Notes under the pieces: model-generated
What the model saw: the letters and a program-made list of their open reading frames with translations, nothing else
The model's database searches: none
What the model was told of the DNA's origin: nothing
Part shown: in pieces, positions 1 to 64,000 of the stretch
Layout of the letters: each line of letters opens with the position of its first letter
Position numbering within the stretch: position 1 is the first letter of the stretch
Translations under genes and position numbers: made by a program
Assembly: GCA_016787525.1 (NCBI GenBank)
Contig: JAEUUP010000089.1
Span: forward strand, 172,275-236,274
Reading direction: 5' to 3'
Source: Saprospiraceae bacterium
GTDB taxonomy: Bacteria > Bacteroidota > Bacteroidia > Chitinophagales > Saprospiraceae
DNA: 64,000 bases

Positions 1-1041
1 ATCACCGACGAGGCAATTCAGTGGTTGGATAAAGGGCGCGACAAATCAAAACCGTTCAGCCTTGTGATTGGTCACAAAGCACCACACCGCGAGTGGCAAC
101 CCGATGCACAAGACCTTCACGCCTTTGATGGCAAACAGTTTGATGTGCCAAAAACATTTTTTGACGATTATAAAGACCGAAAAGCTGCCCAACATCAACA
201 AATGGAGATTAAAGACTTGCGTTGGGACTGGGATTTGAAAGTTGGCGCGAGTGATGTCGGCTATGTGAAACGCATGAATAAAACCCAAAGAAAAGCATGG
301 GACGACTACTACGAAACCGAAAATGCTAAATTGGATACGACAAAAATGACTGCTAAAGAAATCGCCCTTTGGAAATATCAGCGGTATATGCACGATTACA
401 TGGCTTGTATTTTGTCGCTCGACCGCAATATTGGGCGTGTTTTAGACTATTTGGACAAAACGGGTTTGGCTGAAAATACGATTGTGATTTATGCTTCCGA
501 CCAAGGTTTTTACCTCGGCGAACATGGTTGGTACGACAAGCGATTCATGTACGAGGAATCGTTGCGGATGCCTTTCATCATGCGTTATCCTAAAATGGTG
601 AAACCCAATACAGTGGTAGATAATATGGTTGTCAATATTGATTTTGCACCGACAATTTTGCACGCGGCAGGCGTTCCTATTCCCAATGATATGCAAGGGA
701 AATCGGTTTTGCCCTTGGTTTCGAGCAAAAAGAAGCCTAAGGACTGGCGCAAATCTATGTATTATCACTACTACGAATACCCAGATGCGCATCGTGTGAT
801 GCCGCATTTTGGCATCAGAACGGAACGTTATAAATTGATTTATTACTACGGCAATGGGACATCGTGGGAATTGATTGATTTAAAAAATGACCCAGATGAA
901 GTAAAAAATGAAATCAATAATCCGAATTACAAAGCTGTGATTGCCAAATTGAAAAAAGAATTGAAGACTTTGATGATTCAATACAAAGACAATGAAGCTT
1001 TAGAACTGTTGGAAAAAGCGATGAAAACCCCTCAGTTGTAG
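1..1041 (+). CDS. Sulfatase, C-terminal part (truncated by window edge)
   Basis: The reading frame is open from base 1, so the start lies outside the window; 346 residues are visible. It belongs to the formylglycine-dependent arylsulfatase family (alkaline-phosphatase fold), which removes sulfate esters from glycans. Visible family features are GHKAPHREW near the start of the fragment, the metal-site segment SDQGFYLGEHGWYDKR in the middle, and the NIDFAPTILHAAGV segment. The Cys/Ser-x-Pro-x-Arg site that becomes formylglycine must be upstream, so activity cannot be judged here. The overall look is that of the N-acetylglucosamine-6-sulfatase/mucin sulfatase branch (inference). The last codons, KTPQL, contain a copy of the dispersed CCCCTCAGT word. 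Confidence 0.93.
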   Translation: MTDEAIQWLDKGRDKSKPFSLVIGHKAPHREWQPDAQDLHAFDGKQFDVPKTFFDDYKDRKAAQHQQMEIKDLRWDWDLKVGASDVGYVKRMNKTQRKAWDDYYETENAKLDTTKMTAKEIALWKYQRYMHDYMACILSLDRNIGRVLDYLDKTGLAENTIVIYASDQGFYLGEHGWYDKRFMYEESLRMPFIMRYPKMVKPNTVVDNMVVNIDFAPTILHAAGVPIPNDMQGKSVLPLVSSKKKPKDWRKSMYYHYYEYPDAHRVMPHFGIRTERYKLIYYYGNGTSWELIDLKNDPDEVKNEINNPNYKAVIAKLKKELKTLMIQYKDNEALELLEKAMKTPQL

Positions 1042-1265
1042 TGAAAAATAAACGATTGTTCAGAGTCATTGGTCATAAATCCTAAAAAGAATGACCAATG
1101 ACTTTTTGATGGTTAATATCCACAAAGCGTCGAATAAATATTGTTTTTAGCAAAAATGACAAAATTAATTCTCCCTTTAAGGCATCTTTAGTGTACTTTT
1201 ATTCGTCGAATATTAAGATATAGAAAAGTATATTTTTTTATTTATGGTTAAACGGGGACGCAATC

Positions 1266-3506
1266 ATGTGGAACAAACACTTTTTAGGTATTGCAGTTGG
1301 TTGTTTTTTATGTTTTCTGCCTTTCTTACTGAGGGGTAGTCATATCATTGGCGGGGAAATTTATTATAAGTTTGTCAATCGGGTAGGTAACAAAATTCAG
1401 TACCATTTTACGATGCGCATGTACAAAGATGTATTCAACGCACGTGCAACAGCTGACTTCGACAATCCTGCGGTCATTGGTATTTACTTGCAAACACCAA
1501 CAGGTTATACTTTATTTGGTGACAACAACAACGGACAAGGAATTTCAGTACCGCTTTACAACCGAAAAATGGTGAACCCAAACGAAATCCCTTGCCTCAT
1601 TCCACCTTCTAACGTCATTGTCGAAGAAGCTTTGTATGAATGGGATGCTACTTTGATTGATACAAACTTTAGTTATATCATTTCTTCTCAAAAGTGTTGT
1701 CGCAATATGACGATTGCGAATATTTATTCGCCGAGCACCGCAGGTTCAACTTACAGTATCGAAATCACACCTGAATCGCAGCATTTGAACAATAGTAGTC
1801 CTTATTTTAAAACTTTGCCGCCGATTTTCATTTGTGTGAATGAACCGTTGAAGTATAATCATGCCGCTGAAGACCAAGAAGGTGATCAAATTGTATATCG
1901 TTTTTGCACTGCCTATACTTCTCCTTCAGGAGGCAATGCCTCGCAAGGACGATTGCCACCACCGCCACCTTACACACCTGTATCTTACAAACAACCTGAA
2001 TATACCGATTCTGCGCCTATGGGTGGTGACCCTGTTGTGAAAATAGATGCCAATACGGGTCTAATTTACGGTACACCCAATTTAATCAATCAGTATGTGG
2101 TGACAGTCTGTGTCGAAGAGTATCGAAATGGTGTGCTGTTGTCCAGAATGTTTCGAGATTTTCAATTCAATGTACTTCAATGCCAAAAATTGGTAGATGC
2201 TGTGGTGAGTGCAGATTCTGTCTCGGGAAAAAAGTTTTTTTTGTATGGTTGTGAAAATGTGGATTTGACTATCAAAAACTTGAGTTATGAACGCGCTCAA
2301 ATACGCAGTTTCAGATGGGAATTTGATGTGAGAGGTAATATACAACGGCCCTCTGATTGGAGTCCGTCATTGATGTTTCGAGATACAGGTCACTATAAAG
2401 GCGTTTTGTATTTGAATGAAAACTCTCAATGCAACGATTCGGCTTTGATTAATATTCAAATCGGCGGCAAAATCAGCACCAACTTTACGGCTAAATACGA
2501 TACTTGTGTCGCAGGACCTGTTAAGTTCAAAGGCGTATTTAGCTCTGCTTATGCCACTAAGCAGATTTCATGGGAATACAACGACGGTTTGTGGAGTTAC
2601 GATAGTCTTGAAACCAGTCACCGCTATCAATCGCCAGGTATTCGGAATGTGACTTTTGCCGTTACTGACCAATTCAATTGTGTTGGCAAAACAACAAAGC
2701 AAGTGGCTTGGCAACCCGCACCTGACATCATTGTTGTTGAACCAAGTTCTTTTATTGGTTGTGCGCCAGCGAAAGTCTTTTTCAACAATAAATCATATCC
2801 AATTGATACCACCTATAATATCACATGGGATTTTGGCGATGGTAAAACAAGCAAAGCCATCAGTCCGACACATATCTACGAGAAAGGAGGCACTTATAAT
2901 GTGCGACTCAATATCGTCTCGCCTTTGGGTTGCAAAAAAGACGGTTATTTTAGCAATTGGATAAAAGTGAAACCTTCGCCACAAGCTGATTTTGAGTATG
3001 CGCCAACCCGTGTGTCGAATATGACACCGACCGTTTTTTTCAAAGATAAATCAGTCAATGCGATTAATTGGGAATGGATGGTCAATCATTTAGGATTTTC
3101 GTTGAAACAAAACCCTGTTTACACCTTCAAAGATACAGGCAAACACACCATTACTTTGAGGGCGCGCAATACTGAGGGGTGTGTGGATTCTATCACAAAA
3201 ATAGTTGATGTTGAACCACTTGTCACCTACTATATGCCCAATGTTTTCACGCCTAACGACGATTCTAATAATGATATTTTCAAAGGCGCGGGTTTTACTG
3301 AGGGGATGAAAAGTTTTAGTTTTCGCATTGCCAATCGTTGGGGTGAAGTCATATTTGAGTCTAAAGACCCCAGTTTAGGGTGGAATGGTCGAAAAAACAA
3401 TGATGGACAACCTTCTCCGCAAGGCGTGTATTTGTATGAAATCAGCTATGTAAACCCACGTTTAGAGCAAATTAATTTACATGGGTTTGTTACTTTGTTG
3501 CGGTAA
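1266..3506 (+). CDS. Secreted PKD-domain protein with T9SS type B sorting domain
   Basis: 746 residues. A signal peptide ([23 protein letters not shown]) is followed by [11 protein letters not shown], a start typical of large gliding-motility-associated surface proteins. Residues about 500-565 hold a PKD-like beta sandwich (WDFGDGKTS, then [13 protein letters not shown]), preceded and followed by weaker similar modules. The last ~90 residues ([39 protein letters not shown]) match the T9SS type B / gliding motility-associated C-terminal domain, so export through the outer membrane and surface anchoring are expected. Three copies of the dispersed decamer lie inside, read as LLRG, NTEG and FTEG; the first forms the end of the signal peptide. 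Substrate or partner is unknown. Confidence 0.9.
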
Positions 3507-3594: not shown

Positions 3595-5358
3595 TTACAC
3601 CTTCTCCACCGTTACATCAATATTCAATTCAGCCAATTGTGAATCTTCGATGAATGAAGGTGCGTCAATCATCACATCGCGCCCTTGATTGTTTTTCGGG
3701 AAGGCGATGAAGTCTCGAATCGAATTGCTACCCGACATCACAGCACACAAACGGTCGAAACCGAAGGCAATACCACCGTGTGGTGGCGCACCAAACTCAA
3801 AAGCACCGAGCAAAAAGCCGAATTTTGACTCTGCTTCTTCTTCAGCCATGCCCAAGAGTTTGAAGTTTTTAGATTGCAAATCGCGGTCATAAATCCGAAT
3901 CGAACCGCCGCCAATTTCTACACCATTCAACACCAAGTCGTAAGCATCGGCACGGAGGTTTTTCATAGTTTCGTGGTCGCCGTTGAGCATACTAGCGATT
4001 TGGTCGCGTTTAGGCGATGTGAACGGGTGGTGCATCGCGTAGAAACGTTGCGTATCGTCATCCCACTCCAAAAGCGGGAAATCCACAACCCACAAAGGCT
4101 TGAATACTGAGGGGTTGCGTAAGCCTAAACGGTTGCCCAACTCGAGGCGCAATTCGCTGAGTTGTTTGCGCGTTTTTTCTGCTTCACCTGACAGAATGAA
4201 AATGATGTCGCCTTTTTTTGCACCACATTTGTCTGCCCAAGTTTTGAAATCTTCTTCTGTAAAAAACTTCGATAACGGCGATTTGATGCTGCCATCTTCT
4301 TCAAATTTGACATATGCCAAACCCTTTGCACCAATTTGTGGTCGTTTGACCCATTCTGTCAACTCATTGATGGTTTTGTTAGAATACTGCGAAGCAACCC
4401 TCTCAGTATTGATAGCCACCACCAACTCCGCACCATCAAAGACAGGAAACCCTTTGCCTTTTGCCACATCTGTCAACTCCACGAAAGGCATACCGAAACG
4501 CACATCGGGTTTGTCAGACCCATACAAAGACATCGCTTCGTCGTATGTCATGCGTGGAAAATCAGGCAAATCAATATTCAAACAGGTCTTAAACAAGTGT
4601 TTTGTCAGACCTTCAAAAGTATTCAAAATGTCCTCTTGCGTCACAAACGACATTTCACAGTCAATCTGCGTAAACTCGGGTTGACGATCGGCACGCAAGT
4701 CTTCGTCGCGGAAACATTTCACGATTTGGAAATATTTGTCGAAACCCGACACCATCAACAGCTGCTTAAAAGTCTGTGGCGATTGCGGCAAAGCGTAGAA
4801 TTGTCCTGCATTCATACGGCTTGGCACAACAAAGTCGCGCGCACCTTCGGGCGTTGATTTTATCAAATTGGGCGTTTCAACCTCAATAAAGTTTTGTCCT
4901 GCCAAATATTTGCGCGTCTCAATCGCTACTTGCGAACGGAAAAACAAGTTTTTCTGCACCGCACCACGACGCAAATCGAGATAGCGGTATTTCATGCGAA
5001 TATCGTCGCCGCCATCCGTTTCATCTTTGATGGTAAAAGGCGGTGTTTTTGATACATTCAACACTGTCAATTCCGTTGCCACGATTTCAATATCGCCTGT
5101 TGCACGATTGGGGTTTTTTGCCATACGTTCGCGCACAGTACCTTCCACTTTCACCACAAATTCGCGTCCTAAAGCCATCGCTTGTTTGTTAAGGTCTTCA
5201 TTATTTTCAAAAACCACTTGTGTAATGCCATATCGGTCGCGTAAATCCACAAAAGTCATCGGTCCAAAAGCACGAGAAGCGTCAACCCAACCACTCAAAG
5301 TGACCGTTTTATTAACATCTGAAATGCGGAGTTCTCCGCAGGTATGTGTACGATACAT
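3595..5358 (-). CDS. aspS: Aspartate--tRNA ligase
   Basis: 587 residues, the usual length of bacterial AspRS, which charges tRNA-Asp (or tRNA-Asp and tRNA-Asn) in the cytoplasm. The N-terminal anticodon-binding OB fold ([22 protein letters not shown]) is followed by class II motif 2 ([18 protein letters not shown]), the bacterial GAD insertion in the middle, and motif 3 ([14 protein letters not shown]) near the C-terminus. The start at [10 protein letters not shown] is the standard one. It is a single gene, convergent with its upstream-coordinate neighbour. One dispersed decamer (4106) is read on the coding strand as NPSVF, just before the conserved KPLWVVDFP segment. Discriminating from nondiscriminating type cannot be told by eye. 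Confidence 0.98.
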
Positions 5359-5990: not shown

Positions 5991-7340
5991 ATGAATGTAT
6001 TGAAAACAACACGTACAACTTGCGTTTTGGCTCTACTCCTATTGGTTTGGAGTTGCCAAACAGCCGAAAAATCAAACCCAAACTATCAGAAGGAGGCTGC
6101 CAATCCTGAGTTTCTGCACCAATCACTTGTGAGTTTGACAAAGGTTATCAAGCACGACCTTTTTGCGCCTATGATTGCAGCACGTATTTATACGTATGCG
6201 CAAATCGCTGCTTATGAGGCACTGAACGCGCAGACCCCTCAGTATCAGAGTCTCGCAGGGCAAATCAAAGACTTGCCTGAAATGCCCAAAGCAGAAGCGG
6301 GCAAAGACGTTTGTCTGCCTTTGGCAGCTGTGAAAGCTTATTTCAAAGTGGGCAAACAGCTGACATTCTCGGGTGACAGCATGGATGTGGAATGGGGGAA
6401 AATGATGACAGAATTTAAAAAAGTAGGTATTCCGAAAGAGGTATTCGACCGTTCGATTGCCTTAGGTGACACCATCGGCGGCACTATTTTGAAATGGTCG
6501 GCAGGCGACAACTATGCACCCACCCGTTCGATGCCCAAATACACCATCAAACAGCAAAATCCAGCGACTTGGCGACCAACCATGCCAGATTATGCGGATG
6601 CACTTGAGCCAAACTGGAATAAGATTCGCCCCTTACTGATGGATTCAGCAGCACAATTTAAGCCTACACGCCCAACCACTTACGATTCATCGAAAACGAG
6701 TAAGTTCTACAAAGAGGCTTTTGAAGTTTATAAAACGGTGGCTGACTCAACGCCTGAACGTATTGCCACGGCATGGTATTGGGACGACAACCCGATTGCA
6801 ACGCTCAATGCAGGGCATTTTAATATCATCAGAAAAAAAGTGACACCAACGGGCCATTGGATGTGGATTACGATGTACGCATGTCGTCAGCAAAGCAAGG
6901 ATATATTTGAAACCTCAGAAGCCTATGTCAAAGTCGCCATTGGTTTATTCGATGCTTTCATCAGTTGTTGGGACGAAAAATACCGTTCAGAGGTGGTGCG
7001 CCCTGAGACATATATCGGGCAATTCATCGCACCGCAGTGGACCCCCATTATTGTAACACCACCTTTTCCTGAATATACAAGTGGTCACTCATGCGTTTCA
7101 GGGGCAAGTTCGACGATTTTAACGGATGTTTTCAAGACCAATACAGCATTTACAGATAGCACAGAGGTGCAATTTGGCATTCCTCCTCGTTCGTTCAAAT
7201 CCTTTGACGAAGCAGCCCAACAAGCAGCCATCAGTCGGATGTATGCAGGTATTCACTATCGTCCTGCTTGCGACAATGGTATCACACAAGGTCAAGCTGT
7301 TGGCAAACAAGTGTTGGCTAAGGTGAAAACCAAGAAGTAA
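5991..7340 (+). CDS. Vanadium-haloperoxidase/PAP2-like lipoprotein
   Basis: 449 residues from the ATG at 5991; the frame is open further upstream but that part precedes the promoter. The N-terminus is a lipoprotein signal with lipobox LVWSC, so the protein should be membrane anchored. The C-terminal half has the phosphate/vanadate-pocket pattern of the PAP2/vanadium haloperoxidase superfamily: PFPEYTSGHSCVSG, then GIHYRPACDNGITQG, where the SGHS histidine and the downstream histidine would be active-site residues. Members either oxidise halides or act as phosphatases; which applies is not decidable here. A second family member is at 33572-34933. One dispersed decamer is read as TPQY. Confidence 0.85.
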   Translation: MNVLKTTRTTCVLALLLLVWSCQTAEKSNPNYQKEAANPEFLHQSLVSLTKVIKHDLFAPMIAARIYTYAQIAAYEALNAQTPQYQSLAGQIKDLPEMPKAEAGKDVCLPLAAVKAYFKVGKQLTFSGDSMDVEWGKMMTEFKKVGIPKEVFDRSIALGDTIGGTILKWSAGDNYAPTRSMPKYTIKQQNPATWRPTMPDYADALEPNWNKIRPLLMDSAAQFKPTRPTTYDSSKTSKFYKEAFEVYKTVADSTPERIATAWYWDDNPIATLNAGHFNIIRKKVTPTGHWMWITMYACRQQSKDIFETSEAYVKVAIGLFDAFISCWDEKYRSEVVRPETYIGQFIAPQWTPIIVTPPFPEYTSGHSCVSGASSTILTDVFKTNTAFTDSTEVQFGIPPRSFKSFDEAAQQAAISRMYAGIHYRPACDNGITQGQAVGKQVLAKVKTKK

Positions 7341-7379: not shown

Positions 7380-7417
7380 GAAAAAGCGACCCCTCAGTAA
7401 GGAGTCGCTTTTTTCAT
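7380..7417. terminator. Intrinsic terminator with the dispersed decamer in its loop
   Basis: Stem AAAAAGCGAC / GTCGCTTTTTT between the convergent haloperoxidase-like and FN3 genes. The apical part of the hairpin is the CCCCTCAGTA word (7390-7399), whose CC is paired by the following GG. Confidence 0.85.
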
Positions 7418-7446: not shown

Positions 7447-10080
7447 CTACTGTTTTTGCCATTTTTGCGTACTGACCACTTTGCCATTCGCTTTGATAAC
7501 AACCATGTAGAGACCTGTGTTGAGGTTCGATAAATTGTCCAAAGTTTGAATATAGCTGCCCATATCTTGGTTGCCACCATCCAAACGACTGACAACTTGA
7601 CCTTGGAGATTCATCAATTCGACTTTTACATTGGCTTCTTTCGATAGCGTGTAAGCGACTTGAACAGATTCAGAGCCAGGGTTCGGATACACACCAAATT
7701 CGCTGATATATTGCGGCATATCTGTACCTTGTGCTGCAAATTCATCATCGCCAAAGCAGTTTGCACCGAATCGGAATTGTTTGGTCACCCAATCGCTCGC
7801 CTGCCCGTTGCTACAAATAGATCTCACTTGAACAATATAGTAACGACATTGTACGAGTTCTCTCATTACAAAAGCATTGGTCGAAACCCTAACGGGTGTT
7901 GCATTGAAGACAGATGAATCGGCTGCCGCTGCGTATCGCACTTCATAGGTTAAGCCTGTCGCAGGCATAATCCACGTTAATTTGGCAGAATCGGCAAGGT
8001 AGTTAGACACAACAAGGTCACGCGGAACGCTTGCGCATGGTGTAGGGCAGCCTTTTGTCGTAAATGTTGCGCTTGCACTTTCTATAATGCTTGTAGCAGA
8101 GCAATTGGTCAACACACGCCATTGATAAGTTGTGCATTTAAGTAAACCTGTCACACGCACAGGTAAAGCACTGGCATTGATTGAATTATACTGAATAGAT
8201 GTCCAGTTAGCAGTACCTGCCACACGATACTGAATAGTATAAGTCGGCGCGCCAGTCAGACTGAATTTCAAAAAGACAGCTGTATCATTCACAATTTCAG
8301 AAGCTAATGCAGTAGAAGCTACACATGGTCTTGGACAGCCTGTTGTTGTGAATGTGAAATTCGTATAACCCGAAATACCTGTTGAACAAACTGAAGCAAT
8401 GCGTATCATATACGTTTTGCATGTTTGCAAATTGCTTAATGTAATGGTATTAGCCGTGGTAGAGTCACGCTTCCATGCAGCTAAGCTATCCGCCAAAAGT
8501 TTGTATTCAACATAATATTTAACAGCACCCATATTCGCCCATTTCACAACAACTTTGTTAGAGTCTGTGGCAAAACTTATTTCTCTCGGTGTGCCACAAG
8601 GTTCTGGGCAACCACGTGTTTCAATAGTTGCTGTGACGATTTCGCTTGTTGACGATGAAGAACAGACCGTTTTAAGCTGAATTTTATACTTTTTGCAACG
8701 CTCTAAACCTGTCAAAGTGTAGACAGTACCTGTCACATTCGCTTCTCTAATGACAGTTCCTGCCTCATTTGTTACAATCAATCGGAAATTATTGACACTA
8801 CTTGCTGTAACCCATGAGACGAGTGCAACCGTATCAGCCACATACACTTTCAAATTTTTAGGTGCTAAACAAACAGCCGCACAACCACCTGTTTTGAAAC
8901 GAATAGGAGAACTCCACACACTGCTTGAAGTCGTTGTACAGTTTGTTTTGACGCGGAAAGAGTAATAACTACAAGCCGTCAAACCTGTGAACGCATACTG
9001 ATTGCCACGTACGCCTTCAACGGTGCGCCAAGTGCTGTCGCGAGGACCGAGAATTTGGAGCGTATAAGTAGCACCAGCCGTAGTATCCCATTTGACCACT
9101 GCTCCTGTTTCTGTTACGGTATAACTCAAACGGCTTGGTGCGTTGCAACGGACACACCCCTCAGTATTGACAGATATTGTTGCACTCCATTCGCTGTAAA
9201 CAGGAGCTGTCGATGTGCCACAAATGCTACGTACTTTGAATTTGTAGGTTTTACAAGTAGCAACGTTGCCGAGTGTCAAAAAACTTGATGTGCTGGTGAC
9301 TGTACGTGCCGCAGAGTCGCCAATGGAGTACATGATTTCATAAGCGGTTGCGCCTGTTGCGACCCATTTCACTAAAATCCCACCATTGACATTCACCGCA
9401 ACTACTTCGCGTGGCGTGCTGCATGGTGCAACGCAACCACTTGTCTTAAACTTGATGCTTTCTGAGTAAGCACTTGTTTCGGTATTAGAACAAACCGTTG
9501 CAACGCGGAATTGGTATTCCGTACAAGGTTGTAAACCGTTGATTAATAACGAGTTGGTAGAAGATGTTTGCTCGCGCCATGTTGAATCGAGGCGTGATTT
9601 CCATTGGATTTTGTACGTTCTGCCAGTACCCATATTCGACCAATTGAGCGAAGCCGCACTGTCGCGTGTTGCAGCGAACAAAGAAGATGGCGCGCGACAA
9701 GGTTCGACGCAACCTACAGTTTTGAATTCAGCTGTTCTCCAATCACTCACTTCTGTGGCAGAGCAATTGGCACGAAGCCGAACGACATAACATTTGCAAG
9801 CCGTCAAATTCCCCAACGTATAGATTCCTGTATCACGTAGAGTTGTTCCTGCTGTGATGTTGTTAACAGTCGTCCAAGCACTGTCGCTACATGCACGATA
9901 TTGCAAAGTGTAGTTGAGTGGCGGCGTTGCAGCCGTGGATATCCAAATCACCTTGCCAATTGTTGCTTCGGTAGAATAAGCCCCCACATAAGGTGCTGTG
10001 CATACAAGTTCAGGCGCATCTTGTGCGATGGCAAAGAAACTTGAAATAAAAAAACTGAGAAAAAGTATGACTTTTTTCAT
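7447..10080 (-). CDS. Multi-fibronectin-III secreted protein with T9SS type A sorting domain
   Basis: 877 residues from the ATG at 10080, chosen because MKKVILFLSFFISSFFAIAQ is a clean signal peptide; 54 further open codons upstream look untranslated. The body is about eight fibronectin type III modules of ~90 residues joined by a repeated cysteine linker (GCVEPC, GCVAPC, GCVRC, GCAAVC, GCPEPC, GCPRPC, GCPTPC). Each module has the TNYTIQ/YKVRV-like strand pattern typical of these domains. The C-terminal ~85 residues (GVYPNPGSESVQV, NLQGQVVS, GLYMVVIKANGK) are a T9SS type A signal. A cell-surface adhesive or scaffold role is inferred. One decamer is read as NTEGC inside a linker, matching the linker pattern. 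Confidence 0.92.
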   Translation of the reverse strand: MKKVILFLSFFISSFFAIAQDAPELVCTAPYVGAYSTEATIGKVIWISTAATPPLNYTLQYRACSDSAWTTVNNITAGTTLRDTGIYTLGNLTACKCYVVRLRANCSATEVSDWRTAEFKTVGCVEPCRAPSSLFAATRDSAASLNWSNMGTGRTYKIQWKSRLDSTWREQTSSTNSLLINGLQPCTEYQFRVATVCSNTETSAYSESIKFKTSGCVAPCSTPREVVAVNVNGGILVKWVATGATAYEIMYSIGDSAARTVTSTSSFLTLGNVATCKTYKFKVRSICGTSTAPVYSEWSATISVNTEGCVRCNAPSRLSYTVTETGAVVKWDTTAGATYTLQILGPRDSTWRTVEGVRGNQYAFTGLTACSYYSFRVKTNCTTTSSSVWSSPIRFKTGGCAAVCLAPKNLKVYVADTVALVSWVTASSVNNFRLIVTNEAGTVIREANVTGTVYTLTGLERCKKYKIQLKTVCSSSSTSEIVTATIETRGCPEPCGTPREISFATDSNKVVVKWANMGAVKYYVEYKLLADSLAAWKRDSTTANTITLSNLQTCKTYMIRIASVCSTGISGYTNFTFTTTGCPRPCVASTALASEIVNDTAVFLKFSLTGAPTYTIQYRVAGTANWTSIQYNSINASALPVRVTGLLKCTTYQWRVLTNCSATSIIESASATFTTKGCPTPCASVPRDLVVSNYLADSAKLTWIMPATGLTYEVRYAAAADSSVFNATPVRVSTNAFVMRELVQCRYYIVQVRSICSNGQASDWVTKQFRFGANCFGDDEFAAQGTDMPQYISEFGVYPNPGSESVQVAYTLSKEANVKVELMNLQGQVVSRLDGGNQDMGSYIQTLDNLSNLNTGLYMVVIKANGKVVSTQKWQKQ

Positions 10081-37235: not shown

Positions 37236-37278
37236 GGGGGTGTTTAGAACGTTATTGTTAATCAATGGGTTCGCGCTG

Positions 37279-51938: not shown

Positions 51939-51981
51939 ACCCCTCAGTATAATCTGCTTTTTATACAGATTTTCTAACGAT

Positions 51982-53577: not shown

Positions 53578-53921
53578 AATTTCAAAAGATAATTGTTCAA
53601 GTGATGAATGATTAAAAATATAGACTTAGTTTAAAAACAAAACGAAGTTACAGGTTTTTAATTGCCAAGCAAAACTTTTTTTCAAAAGCCATTAAAAAAC
53701 TTTAACACACCCCTCAGTATGCAACAGAGGGAACACAAAAAAGGGCAACCACGACAGCGGTCACCCCTCACACTATGAAACACTATAATTTTTCTTTATG
53801 TACTCGGATAAAAATGAAATTTAGAGCCACAAATCTAACGTTTGATTTCTAAATCTAAAAGAAAAATCTTTTTTTAATACTAAAATTTGGCGAAACAAAA
53901 ATATAAATATATTTTATAATC
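53578..53921. other. Intergenic region with terminator
   Basis: AT-rich spacer with a decamer at 53710. The minus-strand hairpin GGGTGACC ... GGTTGCCC then TTTTTT at 53737-53766 could terminate the GNAT gene transcript. Nothing else seen. Confidence 0.5.
53737..53766 (-). terminator. Possible terminator for the GNAT gene
   Basis: Eight-bp stem with two G-T pairs and a following T6 on the minus strand; 156 bases from the stop. Confidence 0.5.
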
Positions 53922-55582: not shown

Positions 55583-56143
55583 TCAATTGGGCTTCCATTT
55601 GATATTGCAACCACCACTTGGGTATTGTATTTCTGTCACAGTATCTCCCCTCAGTACAGCATCCAAAACGGCACGTAAATCTTCGCCAGTCACAGGTAAA
55701 TCGTTTTTAGGGCGTGAACCGTCTATCCGACCGCGATAAACCAGTCGTCGTTCGCCATCAAAAACATAAAAATCAGGCGTACAAGCAGCATCGTAAGCCT
55801 TAGCGACTTCTTGCGTTTCGTCGTATAGATATGGAAAAGTGTACCCCTCAGTATGTGCCACGATTTTCATCTTGTCGGGTGCGTCTTGTGGATAATTGTC
55901 CACATCGTTGGAGCTGATGCCGACAAACGATACACCTTTAGGCTGATAATCTTTTGCCAATGCCACAATGCCTGAGTTGACATGCAAGACATAAGGACAG
56001 TGGTTGCACAAAAACATGATGACCATTGCTACATCTGAAGCCACATCATCAAGCGTCAAAATGCGGTCGCTGACGGTATCTGGTAAGCTAAAAAAAGGAG
56101 CTTTTGTGCCGAGAGGAAGCATATTTGATTCTGTAAATGCCAT
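55583..56143 (-). CDS. Thioredoxin-fold (AhpC/TSA-like) protein
   Basis: 186 residues, no signal peptide. Peroxiredoxin-like fold with PLGTKAPFFSLPD at the start, the redox motif CNHCPYV (CxxC), GISSNDVDNYPQD and TPDFYVFDGERRLVYRGRIDGS. This DUF-type thioredoxin family is widespread; it likely acts in thiol redox reactions in the cytoplasm. It is followed upstream by the SET gene (28 bp gap), same direction. Two decamers are read as HTEGY and VLRGD. Confidence 0.9.
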   Translation of the reverse strand: MAFTESNMLPLGTKAPFFSLPDTVSDRILTLDDVASDVAMVIMFLCNHCPYVLHVNSGIVALAKDYQPKGVSFVGISSNDVDNYPQDAPDKMKIVAHTEGYTFPYLYDETQEVAKAYDAACTPDFYVFDGERRLVYRGRIDGSRPKNDLPVTGEDLRAVLDAVLRGDTVTEIQYPSGGCNIKWKPN

Positions 56144-56567: not shown

Positions 56568-57077
56568 TTATTTGTGATTTTGGTCAACACCTTCCTCTTC
56601 TTGTCTTTGAATTTCTTCATTACTGAGGGGGTGCTTTTCTTCTTTGAGTAATTTTCCAGATTCATCAAATTCCAAGTTGATATAATCTGTACTTGTTTCT
56701 AATTCAATTTGATAGGTTCTGCCTTTTTGGCTATCTATCTGCAAACTGACCGCTGCTGCATTTTGGTATTTTTTATCCAATACCTGTTGAATGGCTTTAG
56801 GCAAAGACTCTTGTTCTATAAAAGTTGCAGTATATTGATACACGCCTTTGGCATCGTAGAACGCTTTTTTCTCGATTTCATCATCTGTGAACAAGGCAGA
56901 AAAACCCACATCGAGCGTATCCCAAACGACATCTTGGGCATTAGGGCATCGTTTAGCGAAGTCTTCTTGCATCGGTACAATGGGTTGACCTACTGCCGTC
57001 GGAGGCGTTTTGGGCTGTTCTTTACAAGCCAAAAGACAGATGATTGCCGAAAATAGGGTGAAATAGCGCAATATCAT
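56568..57077 (-). CDS. PepSY-like lipoprotein
   Basis: 169 residues from the ATG at 57077 (MILRYFTLFSAIICLLACKE), giving a lipobox LLAC; the longer frame upstream is not used. The body resembles the BLIP/PepSY-like fold (VVWDTLDVGFSALFTDDEIEKKAFYDAKGVYQYT, LPKAIQQVLDKKYQNAAAVS, YQIELETSTDYINLEFDESGKLL). Such proteins are periplasmic or surface inhibitors/chaperones by family guess. Heads the lipoprotein - SET - thioredoxin-like operon. One decamer is read as HPLSN. Confidence 0.75.
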   Translation of the reverse strand: MILRYFTLFSAIICLLACKEQPKTPPTAVGQPIVPMQEDFAKRCPNAQDVVWDTLDVGFSALFTDDEIEKKAFYDAKGVYQYTATFIEQESLPKAIQQVLDKKYQNAAAVSLQIDSQKGRTYQIELETSTDYINLEFDESGKLLKEEKHPLSNEEIQRQEEEGVDQNHK

Positions 57078-57226
57078 AGATGGTATTTTGTATATCGGCA
57101 AAAATAGAGGGAAAATGTCAAACGGCAAAATATAAGGCGGTTTATGAGGTGGGAGGCAACGCTGTACCCCCTCAGTATTCTGTCTCAAAGACCATCGGAT
57201 GCTCATACTGAGGGGGAGAAAAAGAG

Positions 57227-58609
57227 CTATGATTTTATAATTTTCTTCACAATGAATTGGTTGTCTGACTTAATTTTTGCCATGAATACGCCGTTGGGTA
57301 AGTCTGAAAGTGGTAAAATATGCGATGAAGTATTTATTTCCAAATAGATGGTTTTTAATGTTTTACCTTGTAAATCAATGATTTCGACAGTTGTTTTTTC
57401 ATCCGTAGAAAAATTTAAATTTAAATCTGAGCTGAACGGAATAGGATAAAATATGGCTGTTTTTTCACTCAAATCACCTACGCCCACCGTAGGTGCAAGT
57501 GTAAACACCTTTTCAACTGTCTGTGACTTGAAATTTGCGACCACACGCCATGTACCAGCCGAACTATTTGGCAAAGTGAGCGACCAATACCACCAAGAAG
57601 CGTTGTAGGTACTCGGCGAGGTATGTGTCCAAGTGGCTGCTGTTGCACCTGTGGGTGAGTAAATTGTGTAAGTAGTCACGTCACCTTGCGATTGGTCGTG
57701 AAAATAAGCTGTTACATAGATTTTGCTGCCATAAGCAAACTGATAGGTATCGTTGGGTTGGTCATTATAGGTCACGCAATCGCCTTCAACGGCAGGCGTT
57801 TTGCCGAGTTGCAGACGATTGAGCGTTGGGTCGCGCCACGGTTTTTGGTTTGCCCACCAAGTGACCGAACTCAGTGCATTACACGAACCCACGAAAGGGT
57901 CAATCAATTTTCCTGCACTATTGTAAACTTCAAAATGCAAATGTGGTCCCGTCGAACAGCCAGAACTGCCCACCACGCCCAAATATTCTCCTTTGGCAAC
58001 TGATGCGCCAACGTTTTTTGTGGTTTGACTGTTTTTCTTCATGTGACCATACCACGACACCGAATTGTCGGCGTGGCGCACAGCAATAGCATTCCAATCG
58101 TAATTGACGCAAGAACAGTGTTTATCCTCAAAACCATCAATTTTATAAATAATTACACCCGCTTCTGCTGCAATAATGTGTAGTGAATTATCATCCATAC
58201 GCTTCCAGCCGAATGGATAGGTAAAAATGTCTGTACCTTTGTGACCATCGTAAGTTCTTGAGTTACAATTATAATCTTGCACACTACCTGTGGCGGTATT
58301 CTGATCAACAAAATTACTGATGCCGTAGTAGCTTGGATCGGCATCGAAACCCGAAGCTTGTTTCAGAGGCCAATCGAAAGCCACAACTTGTGGTGAACGC
58401 AACTGTGCAAATGCACCTTCACGCTCCAATCGCTCAATATTGGTCGCAATTTGGGTTTGCATCGCTTCTCTGATGGCAGGCGATACGCATTCGGTAGGCG
58501 TGTATTCTGCTGCGCCACCTTCAAAGAATTGTACTGAGGGGGTGCTATTCTGTGCCGAGATACAAAAAGAGAACAGAACAAAAACACCCACTGACAAATA
58601 ACGTTTCAT
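57227..58609 (-). CDS. M23 (LytM) peptidase with T9SS type A sorting domain
   Basis: 460 residues with signal peptide MKRYLSVGVFVLFSFCISAQ. Zinc ligands of the LytM fold: TYDGHKGTDIFTYPFG (His, Asp) and GPHLHFEVYN (HxH). A beta-sandwich domain (YGSKIYVTAYFHDQS ... WYWSLTLPNSSAGTWRVVANF) follows, then a T9SS type A end (IFYPIPFSSDLNLNF, DLQGKTLKTIYLE, GVFMAKIKSDNQ). It should cut peptide cross-links, of cell wall or of other proteins, at the cell surface. One decamer is read as TPSVQ just after the signal peptide. Confidence 0.94.
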   Translation of the reverse strand: MKRYLSVGVFVLFSFCISAQNSTPSVQFFEGGAAEYTPTECVSPAIREAMQTQIATNIERLEREGAFAQLRSPQVVAFDWPLKQASGFDADPSYYGISNFVDQNTATGSVQDYNCNSRTYDGHKGTDIFTYPFGWKRMDDNSLHIIAAEAGVIIYKIDGFEDKHCSCVNYDWNAIAVRHADNSVSWYGHMKKNSQTTKNVGASVAKGEYLGVVGSSGCSTGPHLHFEVYNSAGKLIDPFVGSCNALSSVTWWANQKPWRDPTLNRLQLGKTPAVEGDCVTYNDQPNDTYQFAYGSKIYVTAYFHDQSQGDVTTYTIYSPTGATAATWTHTSPSTYNASWWYWSLTLPNSSAGTWRVVANFKSQTVEKVFTLAPTVGVGDLSEKTAIFYPIPFSSDLNLNFSTDEKTTVEIIDLQGKTLKTIYLEINTSSHILPLSDLPNGVFMAKIKSDNQFIVKKIIKS

Positions 58610-58723: not shown

Positions 58724-59653
58724 ATGCTTTTAAAAAACGTTTTTTTAGCTATTTTCTTAATCATGCAAACCTGTAGTGAACAATCTTCAAAAGGGCAAAA
58801 TACCGTGAGCGATGTCCTGCCCTACGATTTGTCGAAACCATCCACTTCTTTTGATTTGGCGACACCTTTGCACGAAATCTCTGGTCTGACAGCTTCTCCC
58901 AATGCCGAGCAATTGGCTTGTTTGCAAGATGAGATAGGACAATTGTTTTATATTGATAAAAAAACGGGCAAAGCGACCCCCTCAGTCATTTTCCAAAATT
59001 CAGGCGATTTTGAAGGTATTGAGTTTGTAGGCGACACGCTTTGGGCGGTTACGAGCAAAGGCAAATTGTTCAAAATGTGGCATTTAGACAAAACGCCGTT
59101 CGACATTCAAGTTTTCAAAGTTGAAAGTTTGCGAAATGCCAATATCGAAGGTTTAGGCTACAATCGGCAGACGCATCAATTATTACTCGCTGCCAAAGGT
59201 GAAAAAACAGATGGGGCAACTCTACGCACGATTTGGGCATTCGATACACAACAAACGACCCCCTCTCCAAAGGAGTCTATGACAGTATCAAAAGTATTTG
59301 ATGTGCAACTGGCTGATTTTCAATCGTTTTTAAAGCAAAAAACAGACAAACGCTACGCTAAACTCACAAAAGACTATATCGAAAACCCTACGCCTGCGGG
59401 TTTTGAGTTTGGTCCATCGGGCATTGCGGTTCAGCCACAAAACGGACATACATATATCGTGTCTGCAACCAATCGGACGCTCATTGTGTTAGATGCTGCG
59501 GGCAAAATTTTAGATATGGCAAAATTGGACAAAACGCTCTTCCCTCAACCCGAAGGTTTGTGCTTCGATGCGGACGGCACATTGTATATCAGCAACGAGG
59601 CAAAAGACGGCTCAAATGCTAATTTATTGGTTTTCAATAAGCAGGCAAAATAA
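58724..59653 (+). CDS. SdiA-regulated-domain-like beta-propeller lipoprotein
   Basis: 309 residues from the ATG at 58724; the first 17 codons of the longer frame do not give a better signal. Signal region VFLAIFLIMQTC suggests a lipoprotein. The body has SdiA-regulated-domain features: LHEISGLTASPNAEQLACLQDE, GDFEGIEFVGDTLWAVTSKGKL, NIEGLGYNRQTHQLLLAAKG, FGPSGIAVQPQNGHTYIVSATNR, PQPEGLCFDADGTLYISNEA. A six-bladed propeller outside the inner membrane is expected; role unknown. One decamer variant (ending in C) is read as TPSVI. Confidence 0.85.
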   Translation: MLLKNVFLAIFLIMQTCSEQSSKGQNTVSDVLPYDLSKPSTSFDLATPLHEISGLTASPNAEQLACLQDEIGQLFYIDKKTGKATPSVIFQNSGDFEGIEFVGDTLWAVTSKGKLFKMWHLDKTPFDIQVFKVESLRNANIEGLGYNRQTHQLLLAAKGEKTDGATLRTIWAFDTQQTTPSPKESMTVSKVFDVQLADFQSFLKQKTDKRYAKLTKDYIENPTPAGFEFGPSGIAVQPQNGHTYIVSATNRTLIVLDAAGKILDMAKLDKTLFPQPEGLCFDADGTLYISNEAKDGSNANLLVFNKQAK

Positions 59654-59822: not shown

Positions 59823-61064
59823 ATGGCTGTTATAGAAATAAAAGTTCCGAGCATTGCGGAGTCCATCACAGAAGTCACCTTATCGCAATGGCTTAAAGAA
59901 GACGGTGCAATTATCAAAAGAGACGAACCTATTTGCGAATTTGAATCTGACAAAGCAACACTTGAGTTGCCAGCCGAAGTGGGGGGCAAGTTAATACATG
60001 TCGCTACTGAGGGGTCAGATTTGAAAATCGGTGATGTTGTTGCCAAAATTGATACCGATGCTGCTGCTGCCTCAGCTGCAACCGAAGTCACTAAAGCAGA
60101 AGTGGCAAGTCCAGCACCTGCAACGACTTCATCTGCAAGTAATTATGCAACAGGTACACCCTCACCCGCAGCTCAAAAAATATTGGCAGAAGGCGGTGTT
60201 TCGTCCAGCGATGTTAGTGGGACAGGTAGAGACGGGCGTATCACAAAGGACGATGCGCAAAAAGCAGTTGCCAATAAACCAGCACCAGAGCCAGCAAAAA
60301 TCGAAAAACCCGCACCTAAAGCCGAAGCACCTGTTGCTGTATCCGCAGGAGCGTTTAACAGAGGTGAGCGTCGAGTCAAAATGTCGCGTATGCGTCAAAC
60401 CATTGCCAAACGTTTGGTTTCTGCTAAAAATACAACAGCCATGTTGACCACATTCAACGAGGTGGACATGTCGGCGGTATTTGCATTACGGGAAAAATAT
60501 CAAGATAAATTTGTCAAAAAATACGGTATTAAGCTCGGTTTCATGTCCATTTTTGCCAAAGCTTGTGCTAAGGTTTTGTTGGAAATGCCTGATGTGAATG
60601 CTTTCATTGACAGCACAACGAATGAAATCATTTATCACGACTATGCCGACATTTCATTGGCCATTTCGACTCCGACAGGTTTGGTTGTGCCGCCGATTCG
60701 CAACGTTGAGTCTTTGAGTTTTGCCGATTTTGAGAAAAAATTGAAAGATTTGGCAGCTAAAGCACGTGATGGCAAATTGACTTTAGAAGAAATGTCTGGC
60801 GGTACGTTCACTATCACCAATGGTGGCGTATTTGGTTCTTTGATGTCCACACCGATTATCAATGAGCCGCAATCTGCCATTTTGGGTATGCACGCTATCA
60901 AAGACCGCCCTGTGGTGGTAGATGGTCAAATCGTAATTCGCCCGATGATGTACTTAGCGTTGAGCTACGATCACCGCATCATTGACGGTTCTACTTCCGT
61001 CACTTTCTTGGTAAAAGTAAAAGAATTGATTGAAGACCCAACAAGTTTGTTGTTGGATTTATAG
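59823..61064 (+). CDS. sucB: Dihydrolipoyllysine succinyltransferase (2-oxoglutarate dehydrogenase E2)
   Basis: 413 residues. The lipoyl domain (1-75) has lipoyl Lys44 in FESDKATLE; an Ala/Pro linker, the E1/E3-binding domain ([32 protein letters not shown], about 112-145), a second linker, and the catalytic domain (180-413) ending with the catalytic His in SYDHRIIDG. Length and linker type match OdhB/SucB. The E1 gene is not in the window. The TAG stop (61062-61064) lies within the probable target duplication of the adjacent MITE-like element. One decamer is read as ATEGS in the lipoyl domain. Confidence 0.95.
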
Positions 61065-61346: not shown

Positions 61347-62693
61347 TCACTGACTTATCACAATCGAACCCGTACTGAGGGGGGTATTATCTTTCATAAT
61401 TCTATAGAAATACACGCCCGAACTGAGGTTTTTGCGGTGGAAAAGTAGTTTTTCGCCCACAAAAGGTTCATTTCTGACCAATTTGCCTAAACCGTCAAAA
61501 AGTAAGAGTTGCACTTTGGTATCTGTTTTTATTTGTGTCTCAAACGTAGCCATTTCGACAATTGGGTTAGGATAAATCACCACTGTATTGTTAGACAACA
61601 TCGCCAATTGACCTTTTATACGACTTTCATTTTGTTTGACATTGGTTTGCAACGTTTGGCAAAGTGTGAATACAGAGGGAATACTCACAGCTTTCGGATA
61701 GCTATCAAAATACGCTGTTTGGAAAGCTTGCAATGCCAAACGGTTGACACCAAAGCTTGCTGATTCGTCGCTAAATATTTGACTATCAGACTTTTTGACA
61801 TTAGACGAGTCTATTTGGTTGGTTGATTGAATATCGCCATTGGTTGGCAAAATAAAAATAATGACATCTTCTATGATGATATGGTTCTTGCTGTATCTAG
61901 CTGTGTTTGCACCTGCTACCACCACCGACGACACTGCTGCTGCTCGTTGAATTGTAGCAGAACTAATCGTGTCTGGATAAATGTGTGCATCTGAGCAAAC
62001 GGTTTGGTTGATAGGAGCATAGGTTGAGCAGCTGGCTTTGGCTTTCACAGTGAAACGACCAACTCCATTGACAGGTACATCGCCTACGTTGAAACGCATG
62101 ATTTGACCTCTCTGCGATTGCGGCATCTGCGAAGCTTCCACAAAGGTCAAAGATGCATCGAGCACAAAATCAATGTAGGCGTTTTTAGCCAATGATGTAC
62201 CGTTGTTCGCATAGCGGATGGTGTAAACGTTTTCGGCACAATTTTGAAAATTTGGGGCTTTCACATCCACCTGCATAGCTGGGCTGGATGCAGCGGCTTT
62301 CATAGCAAAGTCGAGAGCAATTTCACTACCTTTTGAAGAAAATTTTGTATAAGTGTCTTGTTGGAAGGGCAGCCAGTAGCGATTGGGTGTGATGACGTTA
62401 ATTTTATATGTGCCTAACTCTAATTTGAATTGGTATTGACCTAATCTATCTGTCGCTGTCCAATAAATTTGTCCAGTTGTGGTGTTTTCGGCTTTTACAA
62501 ACCACCCCCTCAGTATCTGTTCATTGTCGAAAGCGGCATTTTGGTTTTGGTCAAAAAAAACTTTACCCGATAGGATATTCAAAGGATTGTCAGAAATTTT
62601 TTCCAGATAAATAGAAGCTTGTTGTTGCCCCCTCAGTAAAAAGGGCAAAAACAAAATGACACTACCGACGATTAAATAATATTTCTTTGCCAT
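61347..62693 (-). CDS. Secreted SdrD-B-like protein with T9SS type A sorting domain
   Basis: 448 residues from MAKKYYLIVGS at 62693 (an ATG two codons earlier is possible). Signal peptide [15 protein letters not shown]. Residues about 45-125 are an SdrD-B-like collagen-binding-type fold (GKVFFDQNQNAAFDNEQIL, DRLGQYQFKLELGTYKINVITP), then a DUF11-like repeat (YTIRYANNGTSLAKNAYIDFVLDASLTFVE). The end is a T9SS type A domain (VVIYPNPIVEMATFE, FDGLGKLVRNEPF, SGVYFYRIMKDN). Surface adhesin-like role is inferred. Three decamers: LLRGQ in the signal peptide, ILRGW, and TPLST three residues before the final strand. Confidence 0.88.
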   Translation of the reverse strand: MAKKYYLIVGSVILFLPFLLRGQQQASIYLEKISDNPLNILSGKVFFDQNQNAAFDNEQILRGWFVKAENTTTGQIYWTATDRLGQYQFKLELGTYKINVITPNRYWLPFQQDTYTKFSSKGSEIALDFAMKAAASSPAMQVDVKAPNFQNCAENVYTIRYANNGTSLAKNAYIDFVLDASLTFVEASQMPQSQRGQIMRFNVGDVPVNGVGRFTVKAKASCSTYAPINQTVCSDAHIYPDTISSATIQRAAAVSSVVVAGANTARYSKNHIIIEDVIIFILPTNGDIQSTNQIDSSNVKKSDSQIFSDESASFGVNRLALQAFQTAYFDSYPKAVSIPSVFTLCQTLQTNVKQNESRIKGQLAMLSNNTVVIYPNPIVEMATFETQIKTDTKVQLLLFDGLGKLVRNEPFVGEKLLFHRKNLSSGVYFYRIMKDNTPLSTGSIVISQ

Positions 62694-62699: not shown

Positions 62700-63200
62700 A
62701 TCCCCGATTTTTCTTTAAACTTATCTTCGAGTATCTCAACAATTTTAGTTTTTCTTTGCATACCGAAACTAAAATCTATTTTTTACTCACAATGGTACTT
62801 TTGGCAGGCTTTTGATGAGGTCAATCAATCAATGATAACGTATAAATGGTCCAATTCGCCGTTCTTATGAGAGAGGTATTTTTCCAATATCGCAAATTTC
62901 ACCTTATTTTCTGAGATAGCAAAATACAGATTTAATAGATTCTCAAATTTTAGTCGAAAATAATTATTGATAATCAATGTTTTATTGAATATAAAATCAA
63001 AACAGAAATGATATTAAAATGAGAATACGTCGAAAATCGCACCTCATTTTAGCTTTTATGAAAAAAACGCCAACTTCTGTCCCCATTTTTGTGGGCAATT
63101 GAACAAAACGAGTGGATTTTTCTTTTTGTAGAAGTTACCAATTATTCACCAGATTGTTTTTGTGAAAAAAATACCTGAATTAAGACCTAACGCTCATCTT
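62700..63200. other. Intergenic region between divergent genes
   Basis: 500 bp, AT rich, with no decamer and no gene visible. Promoters for the flanking divergent genes must lie here, but I find no convincing TTTG/TAnnTTTG pair. Confidence 0.4.
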
Positions 63201-64000
63201 ATGGCTCAAAATAAACCCAGTAGTTTCAAAGATCAATTTGCGGCTTTGAAACACATTCCAGCTCTCTTTCGCTTGATTTGGCGTACCAATCAATGGCTCA
63301 TGCTGTCGAATATCGTGCTGCGCCTGATACGTTCTGCTTTACCTTTGTTGACATTGATTGTTGCTAAAAATATCGTTGACGAAGTGGTTCGATTGGCGCA
63401 AACACACAGTGTATCGCATATCAGTTTCACAGCTTTTTTTACTGAGGGGTCGTGGCTATTGACTCTGATTGTTTTAGAATTTGGCATTGTCGCGCTTTCC
63501 GAAATCATCGGACGAGGTATTTCGTTGACTGAAATCTTGTTGGGCGACCTTTTTTCTAATCAATCTTCGATGGAAATCATTCGGCACGCGGCAACGCTCG
63601 ATTTGTATCAATTTGAAGACCCTCAGTTTTATGACAAATTGGAACGTGCCAGACGACAAACCACGGGACGAACGATACTGATGACACAGGTTTTTGAGCA
63701 AGCCCAAGACATCATCACCATTTTATTTTTAGGAGCAGGTTTGTTGTTTTTCAATCCCTGGCTGATTTTAATATTAGTTTTAGCCGTTATCCCGACCTTA
63801 TTTGGCGAGATTTATTTCAACCAAAAAGTCTATTCGCTCACGTTGAGTTGGACTCCCGAACGTCGCGAGTTGGACTACCTACGCTACATTGGCGCATCGG
63901 ACGAAACGGCGAAAGAAATCAAGATGTTTGGTCTTGCGGAGTTTCTGGCGAGCCGCTTCAAGACTATTTCAGACCGTTATTTTGAAGCCAATAAAAAAAT
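63201..64000 (+). CDS. ABC transporter membrane/ATPase protein, N-terminal part (cut by window end)
   Basis: The frame is open from ATG 63201 to the end of the window (266 codons). MAQNKPSSFKDQFAALKHIP then LFRLIWRTNQWLMLSNIVLRL and several transmembrane helices (ALPLLTLIVAKNIVDEVV, TLIVLEFGIVALSEIIGRGI, IITILFLGAGLLFFNPWLILILVLAVIPTLFGEIYF). The type I exporter coupling part RRELDYLRYIGASDETAKEIKMFGLAEFL is typical of the ABC transporter transmembrane domain; the nucleotide-binding domain should follow beyond the window. Cargo is unknown. One decamer is read as FTEGS. Confidence 0.85.
   Translation, partial: MAQNKPSSFKDQFAALKHIPALFRLIWRTNQWLMLSNIVLRLIRSALPLLTLIVAKNIVDEVVRLAQTHSVSHISFTAFFTEGSWLLTLIVLEFGIVALSEIIGRGISLTEILLGDLFSNQSSMEIIRHAATLDLYQFEDPQFYDKLERARRQTTGRTILMTQVFEQAQDIITILFLGAGLLFFNPWLILILVLAVIPTLFGEIYFNQKVYSLTLSWTPERRELDYLRYIGASDETAKEIKMFGLAEFLASRFKTISDRYFEANKK

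Follow-up and report, generated by a model that had tools for sequence, protein, structure and literature searches.

A short oriented DNA word repeated thousands of times in a Saprospiraceae genome and its likely role in DNA uptake

The stretch of DNA considered here, hereafter the window, comprises 64,000 bases from the genome of a Saprospiraceae bacterium (G000), and it carries from one end to the other a short oriented word, written here either as the 9-mer ACTGAGGGG or as the 10-mer TACTGAGGGG. The 9-mer occurs in 74 exact copies, 39 on the forward and 35 on the reverse strand, with outermost bases at 1028 and 63449, and dinucleotide shuffles of the window contain on average 0.15 copies and at most 2. 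These figures agree with the initial annotation of the window, which had counted 74 copies where about 0.2 were expected, had divided them 39/35 between the strands, and had placed them in coding and non-coding DNA alike; by crude gene calling, in which frames of at least 120 codons are taken as genes, 59 of the 74 copies are coding, including those in aspS and in a sucB-like gene.

Apart from the copies described individually below, exact matches lie on the forward strand at 1328..1336, 3171..3179, 3297..3305, 10174..10182, 12354..12362, 12640..12648, 17657..17665, 18286..18294, 19109..19117, 22703..22711, 22896..22904, 24503..24511, 25330..25338, 27625..27633, 28249..28257, 30143..30151, 32492..32500, 35301..35309, 35559..35567, 36353..36361, 43766..43774, 44852..44860, 54700..54708, 56622..56630, 58533..58541, 61374..61382, and 63441..63449. 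On the reverse strand they lie at 1028..1036, 6235..6243, 9157..9165, 11926..11934, 16027..16035, 20928..20936, 21136..21144, 21552..21560, 25663..25671, 26267..26275, 26778..26786, 43571..43579, 44255..44263, 45147..45155, 48137..48145, 54204..54212, 54585..54593, 55647..55655, 55844..55852, 58978..58986, 62506..62514, and 62629..62637.

For some exact matches the encoded residues were aligned with those of relatives. The copy in aspS (4106..4114, +) codes for NPSV, where relatives have KEGD, KPGD, or DRTK; those at 13463..13471 and 14419..14427, both on the reverse strand, code for TLRG (KSRK in a relative) and TEG (HAF in a relative); and the forward-strand copies at 41987..41995 and, in the sucB-like gene, at 60006..60014 both code for TEG, with SMD and TTG in relatives of the former and the same residues in a relative of the latter. 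The gene of a BNR-repeat protein (37761-40673) contains four exact matches, which code for PQY (37919..37927, +), TEG (38583..38591, -), and twice PSV (39991..39999 and 40435..40443, both +), and the frame 36459-37235 ends with a stop codon furnished by an exact match at 37231..37239 (+).

Outside the called genes, exact matches are found at 14811..14819, 33442..33450, 48861..48869, 51940..51948, and 53710..53718 on the reverse strand and at 40764..40772, 46320..46328, and 50954..50962 on the forward strand. Also outside called genes and on the reverse strand, the copies at 7390..7398 and 16464..16472 lie in the loops of stems (7381-7411 and 16451-16484, respectively), each followed by a terminator-like T run, and the exact match at 31670..31678 lies in the loop of a stem at 31649-31696. 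Within the window, words in stem loops number 3 of 74 compared with 1.4 expected at random positions, which is no clear excess. Finally, two pairs of inverted exact matches form predicted hairpins, one at 47662..47692 (left arm 47663..47671, -; right arm 47683..47691, +; -22.3 kcal/mol on the forward strand) and the other at 57167..57216 (left arm 57168..57176, -; right arm 57207..57215, +; about -24 kcal/mol).

Regarding the form of the word, the initial annotation had described a T before nearly all copies and, after the core, a variable run of four to eight G, often followed by T, and this description holds. The base before ACTGAGGGG is T in 68 of the 74 window copies, GGGG is followed by T (37 copies), G (34), or A (3) and never by C, and the alignment of all copies has almost no flank information beyond positions -2 to +9. 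In 420 kb of G000, runs of at least four G after ACTGA have lengths of 4 (178 cases), 5 (174), 6 (68), 7 (21), and 8 (4), and when the run is of exactly four G the next base is T in 161 cases, A in 17, and C in none. Because of these flanking-base and G-run counts, the recognised unit is best written as (A)TACTGAGGGG followed by T or G. When the word is masked in the same 420 kb, no other word of comparable strength remains, and the top-scoring 10-mer, TACTGAGAGG, is a one-off form of the word itself. The palindrome AAACGTTT, also frequent in the window, was rejected as a further word of this kind, as its copies lie mostly within a tandem array at 47159-47502 with units of 21-22 bases. Low-complexity frames, with MPTAFFRQI-like and LLLIRSA-like repeated units, were also observed at 37337-37792 of the window and near 38500 of contig 161 of G000.

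The excess extends to the whole genome. The G000 assembly, which comprises 7.27 Mb in 169 contigs and is 98% complete, holds 7,346 copies of ACTGAGGGG (3,680 forward and 3,666 reverse) versus 7 (2 and 5) of the reversed word, and 6,920 copies of TACTGAGGGG (3,457 and 3,463) versus 3 (1 and 2) of the reversed 10-mer, and every contig examined (C1-C8, C10, and C161) bears the word. Compared with a second-order Markov model of 428 kb of G000, a sample in which about 7.7 kb was entered twice, the 9-mer is over-represented 418-fold and the 10-mer 1,808-fold. The initial annotation had put the excess at about 300-fold and had suggested a genome-wide k-mer count and a Markov comparison as checks, and both extend its estimate beyond the window; neither of the outcomes that it had named as refuting, a word unexceptional outside the window or a single repeat family with long shared flanks, is seen. 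A local or repeat-family origin was therefore rejected, on the grounds that the copies have no common flanks and that the excess is genome-wide.

The closest named relatives of the aspS of G000 belong mostly to Saprospiraceae, which points to this family. The copy number of TACTGAGGGG does not exceed 14 in any of 397 further family genomes, including the congener G001, nor does that of the 9-mer exceed 32 in any of the 59 relatives searched. G001 is the single congener in the set and a distant one, as its likely orthologues have roughly 45-82% protein identity in the sampled loci. The word may thus either have arisen recently in the G000 lineage or have been lost elsewhere. Additional TEG or PSV peptides in sister proteins are too few to bear on whether sister species share the word. 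Candidate words in G001 itself were dismissed because they seem to stem from gene families or from tandem and intergenic repeats; its loci L123, L120, and L127 contain intergenic repeats based on ACACATAG and on CGCGTCATCCGCGTTCC.

The placement of the copies is not random. In two long contigs of 236 and 140 kb, the strands are used evenly (125/132 and 74/75), and an apparent one-strand run of copies in contig 6 was dismissed, the sequence itself being balanced. The spacing check that the initial annotation had suggested gave the same answer in both contigs tested: the words are spaced more evenly than chance, with a coefficient of variation (CV) of the gaps of 0.81 versus 1.04 in random placements for the 236-kb contig and of 0.72 versus 0.99 for the 140-kb contig. 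Gaps shorter than 100 bases number 8 versus 26.7 and 1 versus 14.8, respectively, and none of 5,000 random placements per contig matched the observed values in either. At closer range, direct pairs of 10-mers at a distance of 3-30 bases occur 6 times genome-wide against about 92 expected from density, and are thus 15-fold below expectation within 30 bases, while inverted CCCCTCAGTA..TACTGAGGGG sites, searched in this order alone, occur 30 times genome-wide against about 46. Among the seven pairs closer than 60 bases in the two contigs, five have the CCCCTCAGTA..TACTGAGGGG order, two the opposite inverted order, and none is direct. The surviving close pairs are mostly hairpins, the stems of which often have longer complementarity, and a T run of at least 5 adjoins four of the six inverted-pair loci that were read. 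It follows from the direct and inverted pair counts that close pairs are avoided and that the remainder are mostly hairpins.

In the same 376 kb, and with the same crude calling, word density is 0.98/kb in called genes and 1.69/kb outside them. The 317 in-gene words are distributed over the five possible phases as 109, 53, 46, 33, and 76; the emptiness of the sixth coding phase was dropped as evidence, since an in-frame TGA makes this phase impossible by construction. Among the word-poor stretches listed, one contains a transposase gene and others are AT-rich genes, and no conclusion was drawn from them; one word-poor stretch of G000 (L107, 12987-16592) has what we take to be an IS256-like transposase together with a long low-complexity repeat frame.

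How the word is accommodated within proteins was examined for word-bearing open frames, 58 of 273 of which match a relative in the loci retrieved. With a minimum identity of 42%, the comparison yielded 33 entries, which reduce to 25 distinct sites once antisense frames and duplicate entries for one site are removed, and at 20 of these sites the word residues align to the relatives without a gap, a gap being present at the other 5. The changed blocks often stand between conserved flanks, as in NPSV for KEGD in aspS, TEG for HAF, and TEG for AAG. For two long proteins, the comparison used close homologues from public genomic and metagenomic data. The BNR-repeat protein and its homologue P0001 (87% identity) have identical peptides at all four word sites (TEG, PSV, PSV, and PQY), and in leucyl-tRNA synthetase three of the four word peptides recur in the three nearest homologues (90%), all three of which have DPEV in place of DPSV at the fourth site, so that the nearest homologue already has the word peptide at 7 of 8 sites. 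As the homologues share the peptides in these two proteins, the words mostly fit residues that were already allowed, and sometimes they change residues. The proteins P0122-P0124, at 90% identity, indicate that sister strains exist. Another homologue of the BNR-repeat protein, P0008 (82% identity), shows two insertions in all, 10 and 8 residues long, both of them exactly at word sites, of which the window protein has four. In addition, the leucyl-tRNA synthetase homologues P0127, P0128, P0132, P0133, P0141, and P0154 carry short inserts in the loop of one word; these are mostly rich in Pro, Gly, and Ala and resemble translated repeats.

Imperfect copies of the word are scarce. The 420 kb of G000 contain 423 exact, 53 one-off, and 107 two-off forms, compared with 0, 0, and 57.6 in G001 scaled to the same length, so that the excess over the congener falls with the number of mismatches; the corresponding numbers for the reversed word are 0, 9, and 165, compared with 1.6, 15.6, and 140 in the length-scaled G001. 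The one-off share, +12.5%, is close to the +21% that accompanies the 5,918 copies of kingDUS, a Neisseriaceae word (PMC3630211).

Words of this kind recur in the phylum, as counts in three further groups of genomes show. A k-mer scan of 77 of 80 aspS loci (those longer than 7 kb), with the highest scores judged by eye, revealed two more words, in G060 and in G061. G060 (locus L024) is a metagenome-assembled genome of an uncultured Saprospiraceae, and it contains GTTTTGGCG 899 times in 3.3 Mb versus 47 for the reversed word; its relative G120 has 924 in 4.1 Mb versus 48. The extended consensus in this pair is GTTTTGGCGAAAGC, of which GTTTTGGCG represents the first nine bases, and in the remaining 58 relatives the word reaches at most about fourfold over the control (53 versus 14 and 47 versus 12), so that no other carrier stands out. 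G061 is Fibrella forsythiae, with TGGGTACGT 1,633 times in 7.8 Mb versus 40, and this word is also frequent in its relatives G064 (2,291), G062 (1,484), G063 (283), and G065 (267), with several others weaker. The fuller word of the Fibrella clade is RGGTACGT, often CAGGTACGTT, with a density in G061, G062, and G064 (L028 and L171-L185) of 86 to 102 per 100 kb. A further scan of 40 loci, 20 from Fibrella relatives and 20 from Saprospiraceae, added one word, in the Fibrella relative G088 (locus L240), where RGGTACTT occurs 43 times in 20 kb and thus represents a one-base dialect of RGGTACGT at twice its density; another 20 family loci, examined where longer than 5 kb, gave no such word. An increase in GGTACTT was also noted in G081 and G077. 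Such words thus differ between lineages and form dialects within a clade.

The Fibrella genomes also bear on how a word is gained or lost. Over 80 kb of alignment between G061 and G062 (77.5% identity), 44 of 77 ungapped G061 word sites are shared, with 6 more gapped; the corresponding numbers for control words are 25 of 69 and 2. From the G062 side, the numbers are 44 of 69 against 25 of 74, and in the comparison with G064 they are 5 of 7 against 0 of 6. The controls were eight permuted words, and since one of them overlaps the real word the comparison is conservative. Of the unshared sites of G061 and G062, 18 of 33 differ by one base, and the words of this clade thus change largely base by base. 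The pattern as a whole points to lineage-specific passwords in the phylum.

On the side of the machinery, the search for a pilus was limited to the motor ATPase family of type IV pili and type II secretion (PF00437), with no search for pilins or the secretin. This family exceeds the cut-off in 5 of 32 genomes, three of them marginally, with a full match in G017 and a partial one in G120, a carrier of the G060 word, and it has no match above the cut-off in G000, G060, G061, G062, or G064. Without a motor ATPase over the cut-off, a ComP-type pilin receptor, which the initial annotation had expected, is not to be expected here. The match to ComEC that the annotation had proposed to look for is present in G000, as it is in all 32 genomes. 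DUF5689, a domain that occurs in a protein needed for Riemerella competence according to PMC8459023, is found in 22 of the 32 genomes and weakly in G000 (4.5e-11). The same source describes four essential transformation proteins of R. anatipestifer without homology to known machinery. The statement of the annotation that no uptake word had been described in Bacteroidota is matched by the literature searched, which left most subscription papers outside its scope and contains, among the matches listed, no such word besides a k-mer table for R. columbina (PMC7965970), in which the candidates are A/T-rich only and none is convincing. A search with the letters of the word returned, among the matches listed, no title on bacterial genomes.

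We consider TACTGAGGGG a likely DNA-uptake word, spread by biased uptake and recombination, and assign to this reading a probability of about 0.6. It is supported by the abundance of the word, its strand balance, the excess of one-off forms, and the lack of an excess in other genomes of the family, and the spacing, the pair structure, the mostly gapless substitution, and the other words of Bacteroidota fit it as well, as does the preference of R. columbina, in the same phylum, for its own DNA (PMC7965970). The most telling feature is the scarcity of close direct pairs, because one word per fragment suffices and a nearby second adds nothing. To this extent the proposal of uptake or self-recognition made in the initial annotation stands, without the pilin receptor that went with it. 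As to mechanism, a surface receptor that prefers word-bearing fragments, and that would be of a different kind from the Neisseria pilin ComP, would take up free DNA; after capture, one strand would enter the cell through ComEC and be integrated by recombination proteins. Repeated replacement of word-less sites by incoming copies would then let the word accumulate to about one per kb wherever the sequence tolerates it. Uptake, the receptor, the biased recombination, and the direction of conversion are what we infer from patterns in the genomes. A broader proposal, which we advance tentatively and at somewhat less than even odds, is that Bacteroidota possess a pilus-independent and sequence-specific import of DNA, in which each lineage would have its own password and a new type of receptor and in which word density would be driven by biased sex. 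The passwords would then be TACTGAGGGG here, GTTTTGGCGAAAGC in the Saprospiraceae pair, and RGGTACGT or RGGTACTT in the Fibrella clade.

Several results weigh against an uptake word. Neisserial uptake words are common to related species, and the window word is not, as the counts in the 397 other family genomes indicate. The evidence on spacing covers 376 kb; in G061, G062, and G064 the words are less evenly spaced (CV 0.84 to 0.94, with 0.86 in G060), and in the 20 kb of G088 they are clustered (CV 1.22). Inverted pairs, in the one order searched, are themselves fewer than chance in absolute number. Measured against base composition, the exact word is in 935-fold and the one-off form in 3.6-fold excess, and the two-off form, at 0.48-fold, is in none, unlike the uptake words described in PMC1939737, whose excess declines steadily with mismatches. 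The drop from exact to one-off is also steeper here than for the uptake signal sequence (USS) of A. pleuropneumoniae (438 exact and 947 one-off) or for the cyanobacterial word HIP1 (5,648 and 1,830) in the same source. Regarding the machinery, the lack of PF00437 matches above the cut-off in G000 and in four other word carriers counts on the same side, ComEC does not single out the carriers, and DUF5689 does not track the words and was not found in G061, G062, or G064.

The main rival, close to the methylation target that the initial annotation had listed among its options, is a word with a chromosome-wide function linked to methylation or repair, as for HIP1, where an enzyme would recognise the word and sequences carrying it would be favoured within the cell. 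HIP1, for which a methylase link is known, is reportedly associated with orphan methylases, and occurrence in a single species would fit an enzyme gained or lost together with its word. HIP1 also reaches similar numbers, with 5,648 copies of a 10-base form in 3.57 Mb in Table 6 of PMC1939737, and its fall from exact to one-off forms is nearer to that of the present word than is that of the A. pleuropneumoniae USS. HIP1 is, however, palindromic, whereas TACTGAGGGG is not its own reverse complement and its two orientations are equally frequent (3,680/3,666), and a function internal to the cell gives no obvious reason for a 15-fold deficit of direct pairs with inverted pairs remaining; we regard this explanation as unlikely, although it is the rival to be taken most seriously. 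Templated copying, in which a recent burst would have overwritten thousands of places with the complete word, is less probable. The few near-misses beside 423 exact copies, the restriction of the excess to one species, and the blocks of three or four residues that differ from relatives between conserved flanks are what such a burst would leave, and the exact coincidence of the two sole insertions of P0008 with word sites is an oddity on the same side. Against it stand the overly even spacing and the avoidance of close direct pairs; moreover, one-off forms number 53 versus 0 in the length-scaled congener, the peptide is already present at 7 of 8 sites of the two conserved proteins, as base-by-base change under selection predicts, and single-base differences account for 18 of the 33 unshared sites of the Fibrella clade. 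The copying process that the initial annotation had listed as an option has accordingly lost ground, given the even spacing and the fact that the residues of relatives already fit.

The annotation had also mentioned a chromosome-organising site, which the balanced strands and the high density render less likely. More specifically, an oriented, G-rich word in both coding and non-coding DNA could serve a translocating enzyme as a Chi-like recombination signal or as a segregation signal similar to the FtsK orienting polar sequences (KOPS). Signals of the Chi type show strand bias along replication arms and a modest excess. Here no strand bias is seen in the two long contigs, and the balance is genome-wide, over 169 contigs whose arms are not assignable. 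According to Table 6 of PMC1939737, E. coli has 1,008 exact copies of Chi versus 151 expected, along with 8,855 one-off forms, compared with an excess of several hundred-fold for the present word, so that we hold such a role to be improbable. The least probable explanation, and a very improbable one, is a dispersed repeat, such as a miniature inverted-repeat transposable element (MITE), a repetitive extragenic palindrome (REP), or similar, or else an assembly artefact, as might be thought from the high copy number and from relatives that lack the word. The 74 copies of the window have no shared flanks past the word, all contigs examined contain it, long reading frames traverse it and align with relatives, and similar behaviour is shown by other words in genomes that were sequenced independently, including that of a named isolate.

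If TACTGAGGGG is indeed an uptake word, self-recognition by means of a DNA word would have evolved independently in a third and distant phylum, via a new receptor. To our knowledge, uptake words have been demonstrated in Neisseriaceae and Pasteurellaceae only, and recognition of the known ones is tied to type IV pili. The finding would be very surprising to a specialist and is directly testable in Fibrella, and it also allows a test of why Riemerella columbina and other competent Bacteroidota favour their own DNA. How such words arise and are driven can be traced base by base across the several lineages and dialects now available, and the words could represent a practical key to the transformation of genetically recalcitrant Bacteroidota.

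Among the known systems, the DNA uptake sequence (DUS) of Neisseriaceae is alike in being a short oriented word with thousands of exact copies on both strands and few one-offs, and in having dialects in related lineages, as seen here in the Fibrella clade. It is unlike in the phylum and in the word itself, in that G000 has no motor ATPase over the cut-off, so that no ComP-type receptor is expected, and in that the present word is not shared with the congener; sharing of a word or of dialects among relatives holds for the Fibrella word and does not hold for TACTGAGGGG. The USS of Pasteurellaceae resembles the word in its oriented core of 9-10 bases and its density of about one per kb, and it is known for even spacing and for inverted close pairs that act as terminators. 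Differences from the USS are the far fewer near-misses here, the lack of a pilus motor over the cut-off, and a follow-on part limited to a single G or T plus a G run of variable length. HIP1 (GCGATCGC) likewise has thousands of copies, a species-dependent abundance, and sites in coding DNA, and differs in being palindromic and methylase-linked, whereas TACTGAGGGG is non-palindromic. Natural transformation in Riemerella concerns the same phylum, and R. columbina prefers its own DNA, although the candidate words in that report (PMC7965970) are A/T-rich k-mers, none as strong as the one described here. Because the window word is not shared among relatives and no pilus motor ATPase was found over the cut-off, we do not file it as a standard DUS or USS, yet it would work like either of them.

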